Shown: piece by piece, positions 43,104 through 54,343 of the stretch
Layout of the letters: every line of letters begins with the position of its first letter
Position numbering within the stretch: position 1 is the stretch's first letter
Assembly (NCBI RefSeq): GCF_900128965.1
Contig: NZ_FQUL01000006.1
Coordinates: 1 to 64,000, forward strand
Length of the DNA: 64,000 nucleotides
Direction of reading: 5' to 3'
From: Ferrithrix thermotolerans DSM 19514
GTDB lineage: Bacteria > Actinomycetota > Acidimicrobiia > Acidimicrobiales > Acidimicrobiaceae
Position numbers and translations under genes: made by a program
Notes under the pieces: generated by a model
Told to the model about the DNA's origin: nothing
The model's database searches: none
What the model saw: only the letters and a program-made list of their open reading frames with translations

Positions 43104-43123
43104 TGTGTTAGCTGAGGTTATTA

Positions 43124-43139
43124 TAGAACATGTGTTCTA
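43124..43139. promoter_or_regulatory. SOS box (LexA site) upstream of recA
   Basis: GAACATGTGTTC at 43126-43137 matches the Gram-positive/actinobacterial LexA consensus GAAC-N4-GTTC. The flanking TA on each side extends the dyad to TAGAAC/GTTCTA. It lies about 80 bases before the recA start codon. The same operator type recurs at the lexA gene in this window. Confidence 0.88.
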
Positions 43140-43176
43140 AGATTATCTACCGGGTTTTGTAACTACACATTTGTAA

Positions 43177-43202
43177 GTTATCTATATAGGATTGTAGATA
43201 AC
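43177..43202 (+). repeat. 8-bp inverted repeat in the recA leader
   Basis: GTTATCTA (43177-43184) pairs perfectly with TAGATAAC (43195-43202) across ten bases. The right arm ends five bases before the recA ribosome-binding site GAGGAG (43208-43213). It could be an RNA hairpin modulating translation or a second operator. Confidence 0.5.
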
Positions 43203-43218
43203 CAGCTGAGGAGTGATG

Positions 43219-52658: not shown

Positions 52659-53324
52659 CTAGTAGGTCCGCATCAGACCTAAAACCTTACCGATAACGCC
52701 GTCTCGTTCGTCGCTGAAGTAGATGGTGGAGCGTTCTTCGCTGTAGGTGGAGTTTCTGGCTCTCAGCTTGGGAACTCCATCTCGGTCCTCGTAGACCTTT
52801 ACGGTTCCATCTTGTCCTCCATTTATAAGTGCTACCACGATGTCTCCGTGTTTCGCGGTTCTTTGAGAGCCGACCACCACCACGTCGTCTTCGAAGATTC
52901 CGATATCTACCATGGAGTCGCCCCTAACCTTCAGGGCAAAGAGCTTTCCAGATTGTGAACCTATGAGATCTGAAGGAACAGCAAAGGTGTTTTCAAAGTG
53001 TTCCTCAGCTAATACCCCAACTCCGGCGGCTACGTCTCCGAGTAGGGGAACCAGGAGGACCGGCTCGTCACCTTTCTCTGGGGCTAAAGAGTCAGGGCTT
53101 TGGGTAATGCTAAGCGCACGTGGTTTTGTTGGGTCCCTCACGATCTGTCCGGCTTTTTCGAGAGCTCGCAGGTGGTACTGGACGGTCGATGGCGACGCAA
53201 ATCCAATGGCGTCCGCTATTTCGCGTACCGATGGAGGGTAGCCCTGTTCTGCGACTACCTTTTTAATAAAGTCCATAATCTGTCTCTGTTGGGCTGTCGG
53301 TAGCTGAGGGCTCGATCTTTTCAT
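52659..53324 (-). CDS. lexA: SOS repressor LexA
   Basis: The protein has 221 residues. The winged helix (PSVREIADAIGFASPSTVQYHL) occupies the first 70 residues. The cleavage site is Ala100-Gly101 (DVAAGVG), with catalytic Ser137 in VRGDSMVD and Lys176 in GTVKVY. RecA filaments trigger its autocleavage. The start ATG at 53324 lacks a ribosome-binding site, but a TACAAT (53337-53332, minus) lies exactly seven bases before it, fitting leaderless transcription. SOS boxes at 53349 and 53378 allow autoregulation. Confidence 0.97.
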   Translation of the reverse strand: MKRSSPQLPTAQQRQIMDFIKKVVAEQGYPPSVREIADAIGFASPSTVQYHLRALEKAGQIVRDPTKPRALSITQSPDSLAPEKGDEPVLLVPLLGDVAAGVGVLAEEHFENTFAVPSDLIGSQSGKLFALKVRGDSMVDIGIFEDDVVVVGSQRTAKHGDIVVALINGGQDGTVKVYEDRDGVPKLRARNSTYSEERSTIYFSDERDGVIGKVLGLMRTY

Positions 53325-53331
53325 AAAAACT

Positions 53332-53337
53332 ATTGTA
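53332..53337 (-). promoter_or_regulatory. -10 box of lexA (possible leaderless promoter)
   Basis: TACAAT on the minus strand ends seven bases before the lexA ATG at 53324, so the transcription start would coincide with the start codon. The degenerate SOS half-palindrome at 53349-53360 would lie over the spacer and -35 region. Confidence 0.5.
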
Positions 53338-53348
53338 ACTTTAAATTA

Positions 53349-53360
53349 GAACATGTGTGC
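53349..53360. promoter_or_regulatory. degenerate SOS box near lexA
   Basis: GAACATGTGTGC differs from the GAAC-N4-GTTC operator at one base of the right half. It lies 25 bases upstream of the lexA start and 18 bases from the perfect box, so LexA could bind both cooperatively. Confidence 0.5.
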
Positions 53361-53370
53361 GAATCTGTAG

Positions 53371-53376
53371 TACAGT
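53371..53376 (+). promoter_or_regulatory. -10 box of the LysM gene (possible leaderless promoter)
   Basis: TACAGT ends seven bases before the ATG at 53384, mirroring the lexA arrangement. A transcript starting on the ATG would have no leader, which agrees with the missing Shine-Dalgarno sequence. Confidence 0.5.
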
Positions 53377-53377
53377 A

Positions 53378-53389
53378 GAACATATGTTC
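53378..53389. promoter_or_regulatory. perfect SOS box overlapping the LysM gene start codon
   Basis: GAACATATGTTC is a perfect 12-bp palindrome matching GAAC-N4-GTTC, with a further C-N12-G context. The ATG of the LysM gene (53384-53386) is inside it, so bound LexA would cover the transcription start. It serves the LysM gene and probably lexA, 54 bases away. Confidence 0.9.
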
Positions 53390-53749
53390 GCATTAAATGA
53401 AAAATCTTCAACCTATTTCGAAGATTACTCAATCCCAGGCTCTCACCCCGCTAATACTCTCCATGGAAAGATAGGAGAGCGAATCTATCTCTGGTTGTGC
53501 TACGGGTTGTTTATGGTAGCACTGGCCTTTGTAGGACTGGGACTTTACTCGCACTTTATCTCCTCCAAGGGCCAAAGCGCCGTTGTAGCTAGGGAGTATG
53601 TGGTAAAGCCCGGGGATACTTTGTACTCGATAGCGCTTCGCTACAGTGACGGGTCTGATCTCAACCAATATCTCTACTCCTTGGAACAGGAGGTAGGGCC
53701 TAACGCGCTGATTTATCCCGGAGAGATTATACAACTCCCTTCGGCATAG
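53384..53749 (+). CDS. SOS-regulated membrane LysM protein, likely division inhibitor
   Basis: The protein has 121 residues. A 32-residue cytosolic N-terminus is followed by one membrane segment (about 33-57) and one LysM domain (about 71-119, YVVKPGDTLYSIALRYSDG, then YPGEIIQLP) that should bind peptidoglycan outside. This layout, and its place between lexA and nrdR under an SOS box, match YneA of Bacillus and the Rv2719c (ChiZ) locus of Mycobacterium, which block septation during DNA damage. The role here is inferred from architecture and context. The ATG at 53384 is chosen; a GTG at 53357 would place the promoter inside the gene. Confidence 0.85.
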   Translation: MFALNEKSSTYFEDYSIPGSHPANTLHGKIGERIYLWLCYGLFMVALAFVGLGLYSHFISSKGQSAVVAREYVVKPGDTLYSIALRYSDGSDLNQYLYSLEQEVGPNALIYPGEIIQLPSA

Positions 53750-53842: not shown

Positions 53843-54343
53843 GTGATAGGTTTGCGCTGCCCTTACTGTTTTAGGGATGAAGATCGGGTTGTGGACTCGA
53901 GAACGGTCGATGATGGGGACGCCGTGAGACGTCGGCGCGAGTGTCTGGCATGTGGGCGTAGGTTTACCACATTTGAAAAGGTCGCCGAAGATACAAAGAT
54001 TGTCGTGCTCAAAAGAAGAGGCGCTAGGGAGAGCTTCGATCGGGAGAAGGTGGCACAAGGCATGAGAGCAGCTTTGAAAAATCGACCCTTTTCGGACTCG
54101 GAGATCGACGCTTTGGCGGCCGACGTCGAGGAGGAGATTCGATCGTTCAAGGAGGAAGTAACCTCGCAAGAGATAGGTCAAATCGTCTTACGACGGCTTT
54201 TCGAGGTCGATGAGGTGGGGTATATGCGCTTTGCCTCTGTTTACAAGGGGTTTGAGCGGCTTCAGGACTTCACCGAAGAGGCCTCATTTGTCTCTCCGGC
54301 AGTGCTTGAGAAACGGGAGGATGATAGAGATGTTGGTGAGTGA
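53843..54343 (+). CDS. nrdR: ribonucleotide reductase repressor NrdR
   Basis: The protein has 166 residues. The zinc ribbon has RCPYC and CLACGRRF, with VVDSRTVDDGDAVRRRREC between. The ATP-cone domain follows (KRRGARESFDREKVAQGM). It senses ATP/dATP and represses nrd genes. The start may be the GTG at 53843 or a TTG nine bases later that would give the usual beginning just before RCPYC. The order lexA-LysM gene-nrdR is the actinobacterial one. The nrd genes themselves are not here. Confidence 0.95.
   Translation: MIGLRCPYCFRDEDRVVDSRTVDDGDAVRRRRECLACGRRFTTFEKVAEDTKIVVLKRRGARESFDREKVAQGMRAALKNRPFSDSEIDALAADVEEEIRSFKEEVTSQEIGQIVLRRLFEVDEVGYMRFASVYKGFERLQDFTEEASFVSPAVLEKREDDRDVGE

Follow-up and report, generated by a model that had tools for sequence, protein, structure and literature searches.

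The 59-base gap between lexA and the divergently transcribed LysM gene beside it was deduced, with a probability of roughly 0.8, to hold a pair of divergent sigma-A promoters, both leaderless, together with two LexA operators, the operator of the LysM gene being centred on its start. The gap lies in the window, the whole 64,000-nucleotide stretch of Ferrithrix thermotolerans DSM 19514 that was analysed. The arrangement of the two genes is real and conserved, and the reading that best fits the genomes compared is an SOS promoter that is leaderless and has its operator centred on the start. The features on which this rests are listed in Table 1.

Table 1. Coordinates of the lexA/LysM gap, its flanking genes and the recA control in the window
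Feature	Positions	Strand	Evidence or remark
lexA (221 aa, LexA DNA-binding domain and S24 peptidase)	52659..53324	-	Pfam PF01726 2e-23, PF00717 9e-25
lexA start codon ATG	53324-53322	-	
-10 hexamer of lexA, TACAAT	53332..53337	-	7 nt (53331-53325) ahead of the ATG
SOS box B, GAACATGTGTGC	53349..53360	none	one mismatch, degenerate
-10 hexamer of the LysM gene, TACAGT	53371..53376	+	7 nt (53377-53383) ahead of the ATG
SOS box A, GAACATATGTTC (GAACAT, ATGTTC)	53378..53389	none	perfect palindrome
LysM gene start codon ATG	53384-53386	+	
LysM gene (121 aa: ~34 aa, one TM at residues ~34-60, C-terminal LysM)	53384..53749	+	Pfam, hydropathy
nrdR, next gene, same strand as the LysM gene	53843..54343	+	Pfam PF22811, PF03477
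SOS box of recA, GAACATGTGTTC	43126..43137	none	control case; one base after TATTAT (43119-43124)

The initial annotation had described a TACANT hexamer exactly seven bases before each ATG, the lack of a Shine-Dalgarno sequence at both genes, and a perfect palindrome containing the ATG of the LysM gene. The hexamers and the palindrome were all found at the coordinates given for them, and inspection of the sequence ahead of the two starts gave no Shine-Dalgarno-like stretch for either lexA or the LysM gene. Box A has the GAAC-N4-GTTC form of the palindromic operator of the Gram-positive and actinobacterial LexA (SOS) regulon. Its dyad axis falls between 53383 and 53384, directly before the A of the LysM ATG, so that this codon is the start of the right half of the box. 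Assuming 17-bp spacers, the -35 region of lexA is expected at ~53355-53360 and that of the LysM gene at ~53348-53353, so that both fall within box B or reach its edge (53348-53360), and the -35 elements of both promoters are weak.

The genus comparison comprised four genomes, the source genome and three genus mates whose LexA orthologues are 62 to 66% identical. Box A is kept in the mates as GAACATATGTAC (read on the lexA strand) and lies within at most one mismatch in all four genomes, while box B, present in the mates as GCACATATGTTC or GCACATGTGTTC, is exactly 29 bp from box A in every case. The LysM gene shows TANNNT-N7-ATG with box A on the ATG in 4/4 genomes, the hexamer being TATAGT in the three mates. 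The alignment of this gap across relatives that had been proposed initially thus returned a fixed distance between the boxes and a fixed LysM spacing. For lexA, the claim of exactly seven bases held in the source genome but not in the mates, where TANNNT is retained and the spacing is N6. Both genes therefore have, in all four genomes, the layout of leaderless genes, namely a -10 hexamer 6 to 7 nt before the start and no Shine-Dalgarno sequence.

The LysM proteins of the genus are 52 to 56% identical, and M1 and F2 are the sole invariant residues among the first 34. These two codons are written by the box A half-site ATGTTC. Since only the operator-encoded pair is invariant while the following 32 residues drift, the pattern points to a constraint on the DNA rather than on the protein.

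An ordinary leader for the LysM gene, with translation from a GTG at 53357 or from the ATG without a Shine-Dalgarno sequence and with box A acting as a roadblock operator in early coding sequence, was judged improbable. No stop interrupts the frame from this GTG in any of the four genomes, and starting there would add nine codons to the protein; however, the codon lies inside box B, and its presence therefore follows from the box. The 27 bases from this GTG to the ATG differ among the genomes at codon positions 1 and 2. As a start codon, GTG 53357 was rejected as unlikely, having neither a Shine-Dalgarno sequence nor a -10 at leaderless distance and lying upstream of the predicted -10. The leaderless reading of the LysM ATG is further favored over an ordinary leader by the TANNNT-N7 kept before it in 4/4 genomes and by the recurrence of this layout at recG and ruvC, the latter of which has no upstream start.

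These two genes were recovered by a search of the genus for TANNNT-N-GAACATATGTTC, with the matches then inspected individually. At recG, TANNNT-N-GAACAT-ATG was observed in 4/4 genomes, with TATACT, TATGAT or TATAAT as the hexamer and GGAACAT, or a form differing from it by one base, directly ahead of the ATG. At ruvC, AGAACAT-ATG was present in 4/4 genomes and a strict TANNNT in 3/4. The ruvC gene is the most telling example: an in-frame stop codon close upstream leaves its ATG as the sole start available, and the product begins MYVLGVDPG, and for these two reasons no alternative start is possible. The recG gene is the weaker example, as in genome G000 only 24 bp separate it from the preceding gene on its strand and it has an extra in-frame ATG 9 nt upstream in the three genus mates.

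The recA gene served as the control. Its coding start is ~80 nt downstream of its SOS box, behind a Shine-Dalgarno sequence, and the offset between operator and -10 is nevertheless the same as in the leaderless genes. Across the 16 sites formed by LysM, recG, ruvC and recA in the four genomes, TANNNT occurred at exactly that offset in 15 and at any other offset in at most four. Because leadered recA keeps the operator at this distance from its -10, the operator was judged to be positioned on the transcription start. In the simplest reading of these alignments, the operator sits at +1, which in leaderless genes would be the start codon itself. The proposal of divergent leaderless promoters is supported by this control together with the four-genome conservation and the layout of recG and ruvC. 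As a separate observation at recA (window 43119-43215; L077, L083 and L186), an ATG or GTG within the operator could start a leaderless mini-ORF, 2 to ~15 codons long, in front of recA, and the length of the corresponding peptides is not conserved.

It was also considered that the ATG in box A might be there by chance, since such a palindrome frequently includes CATATG, with the start unconstrained relative to the operator. Boxes of the GAACATATGTTC type contain ATG by nature, and at dnaE2, and probably at imuA, the -10 follows shortly after the box and the start is elsewhere. Against this, the ATG occupies the identical operator position in all 12 LysM, recG and ruvC sites, 11 of which have TANNNT at the identical offset, and such a coincidence was deemed very unlikely.

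The specificity of the motif was assessed against reversed controls. The exact 12-mer GAACATATGTTC occurs at three places in the 2.49-Mb genome (reversed control, 0), the two copies other than box A being at dnaE2 and at an imuA-like gene; with one mismatch allowed, the counts were 9 and 2, respectively. The combined pattern TANNNTNGNACATRTGTNC gave 33 matches in 42 family genomes versus none for its reversed control, and these matches are not all start-codon operators, some being dnaE2-adjacent boxes read on the opposite strand and some belonging to mobile elements. Elsewhere in the genome the operator accompanies recA, dnaE2 and further repair genes, as expected for a LexA regulon. If box A were instead recognized by a different repressor, such as one of the ArsR family with a similar site, the link to the SOS response would be indirect, and ArsR-type sites are reported to resemble the mycobacterial SOS box (PMC8151990). 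This explanation can be given hardly any credence, because the genes found at such boxes (recA, lexA, dnaE2, imuA-like, recG and ruvC) constitute a classical LexA regulon and box A itself adjoins lexA.

A leaderless start for the LysM gene is also in keeping with the genome at large. In the 461 kb of the 2.49-Mb genome that were covered, TANNNT was found 6 or 7 nt before the candidate start of 25/99 genes that are the first of a divergent unit, versus 3/99 at 11 or 12 nt (Fisher p = 7e-6). From this enrichment, leaderless genes are probably common in F. thermotolerans.

Two further groups of sites were noted in the course of these searches. The imuA-like gene, whose product has no Pfam match and which was named from its position before imuB-like and dnaE2 genes, carries a long palindrome around its SOS box in G000 (L074/L078, C42:5719-5744; CAATATTGTAGAACATATGTTCTACAATATTG) and in G001 (L087/L197). 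Two leaderless starts are possible in this region, the first within the box and the second preceded by TAYAAT-N6. As a clean genus example, imuA was withdrawn, since in G000 and G001 the box is followed by another ATG that has a TAYAAT- or TATAAT-type hexamer ahead of it. In G031 and G032 (L200 and L201), which represent another genus of the family, the imuA-like gene starts in the SOS box as TATTAT-N7-ATG, with a product beginning MFA, and there the in-box ATG fits better. The second group is a repeated element in G001 and G002 (L071, L072, L075, L092, L095, L096 and L099) in which a -10-like CATACT or TATACT comes directly after the box GAACATATGTAC. The gene of this element begins beside the box, and the N terminus of its product resembles the helix-turn-helix of IS607-type recombinases; in the L092 product, a resolvase N-terminal domain (Pfam PF00239, 2e-6) comes after the HTH-like region. 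Several copies look broken. Judged by these features, the element may encode a transposon recombinase that LexA controls, and the literature search returned no paper joining IS607, LexA and the SOS response.

Beyond the genus, the start-codon layout of the LysM gene was not found family-wide, the wider acidimicrobial family being mostly without it. Other acidimicrobial relatives have several boxes in the gap, with none on the start codon, often together with a leaderless-type lexA, and at least some of their genes divergent from lexA have a Shine-Dalgarno sequence. The related lexA loci in public genomes came largely from Acidimicrobiia and other Actinomycetota. Many acidimicrobial and other lexA loci (L105-L184) were seen to carry three to six SOS-box-like sites at varying spacing in the gap, often with TANNNT 6 to 7 nt ahead of the lexA ATG.

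The mechanism proposed for the gap is as follows. Box A would have the LysM +1, presumably the A of the ATG, at its centre, and box B would lie over the -35 region of both promoters, such that bound LexA would keep RNA polymerase off both. Having two operators, the LysM gene is expected to be the more tightly shut. Upon RecA-stimulated cleavage of LexA, both genes would be transcribed into mRNAs beginning at the start codon, and the membrane-anchored LysM protein, if of the YneA/ChiZ type, would delay division. It had been suggested initially that LexA blocks initiation of the LysM gene directly on its start codon. The placement of the operator over the start is upheld, and the step blocked is refined to the engagement of RNA polymerase at the +1 region, as the promoter layout would suggest. 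The further suggestion was that the box at 53349 tunes lexA, but this box is not simply that of lexA. Given its conservation in 4/4 genomes and its overlap with the -35 positions expected for the two promoters, box B probably represses both genes, with box A probably adding control on the LysM side only. The start codon of the LysM gene would fall inside an operator because the gene is leaderless.

The LysM domain was located at residues 72 to 119 (Pfam 3e-7) and the hydropathy peak at residues 36 to 54. One TM segment followed by a C-terminal LysM domain, in a gene divergent from lexA under an SOS box, is the arrangement of the YneA/ChiZ type. From this domain plan and its place beside lexA, the protein is, by analogy, a candidate SOS-induced division inhibitor like YneA and ChiZ.

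On balance, we favor the broader view that LexA operators are fused with leaderless starts in this genus, one 12-bp palindrome serving as repressor site, transcription start and start codon at the LysM gene, recG and ruvC and dictating the second residue (Phe, Tyr or Cys). If so, operator and initiation codon can evolve only together. The fixed M1-F2 of the LysM protein, followed by 32 drifting residues, would then be a repressor site constraining protein coding. The pattern TANNNT-N-GAACAT-ATG can serve as an easy guide to SOS genes, and to where they truly start, in bacteria rich in leaderless genes, and the fusion of -10, operator and start codon would make it possible to test cleanly whether tighter control comes from LexA at +1 or from LexA at -35.

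In Bacillus subtilis, yneA adjoins lexA and mRNAs are mostly leadered, unlike the LysM gene described here, which is apparently leaderless. YneA is SOS induced, has one TM segment and an extracytoplasmic LysM domain, and blocks septal wall synthesis (PMC13396833); the likeness to the present protein is one of domain plan. In mycobacterial leaderless genes, an RTG at the 5' end of the mRNA suffices for translation and the -10 is of normal composition and spacing (PMC4633059), and the genes described here differ from these in that a repressor operator takes in the start codon. For Deinococcus, published work on the DdrO/RDRM radiation response places damage-response operators in or very near promoters and describes leaderless mRNAs as important in the genus (PMC5552922 and references therein), but the repressor and the motif are different ones.

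The closest parallel is with Mycobacterium tuberculosis, in which lexA is leaderless by experiment (PMC2897130), the gap holds four SOS boxes, of which one regulates lexA and three the opposite side (PMC8151990), and the divergent gene encodes ChiZ (Rv2719c), a DNA-damage-induced LysM division inhibitor (PMC3989709). The leaderless lexA, the several SOS boxes split between the sides and the divergent LysM gene are shared, and the asymmetry of the boxes appears, by analogy, to be similar; the present gap differs in having two boxes rather than four and in that one is centred on the LysM ATG. No start-codon operator for Rv2719c was described in the literature searched, and in a search that lay mostly outside subscription journals, no account was found of LexA operators that are centred on the start codons of several leaderless genes. 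Leaderless lexA with multiple SOS boxes is thus already known from M. tuberculosis, and the recurrent start-codon-centred operator is, as far as that search suggests, apparently new.
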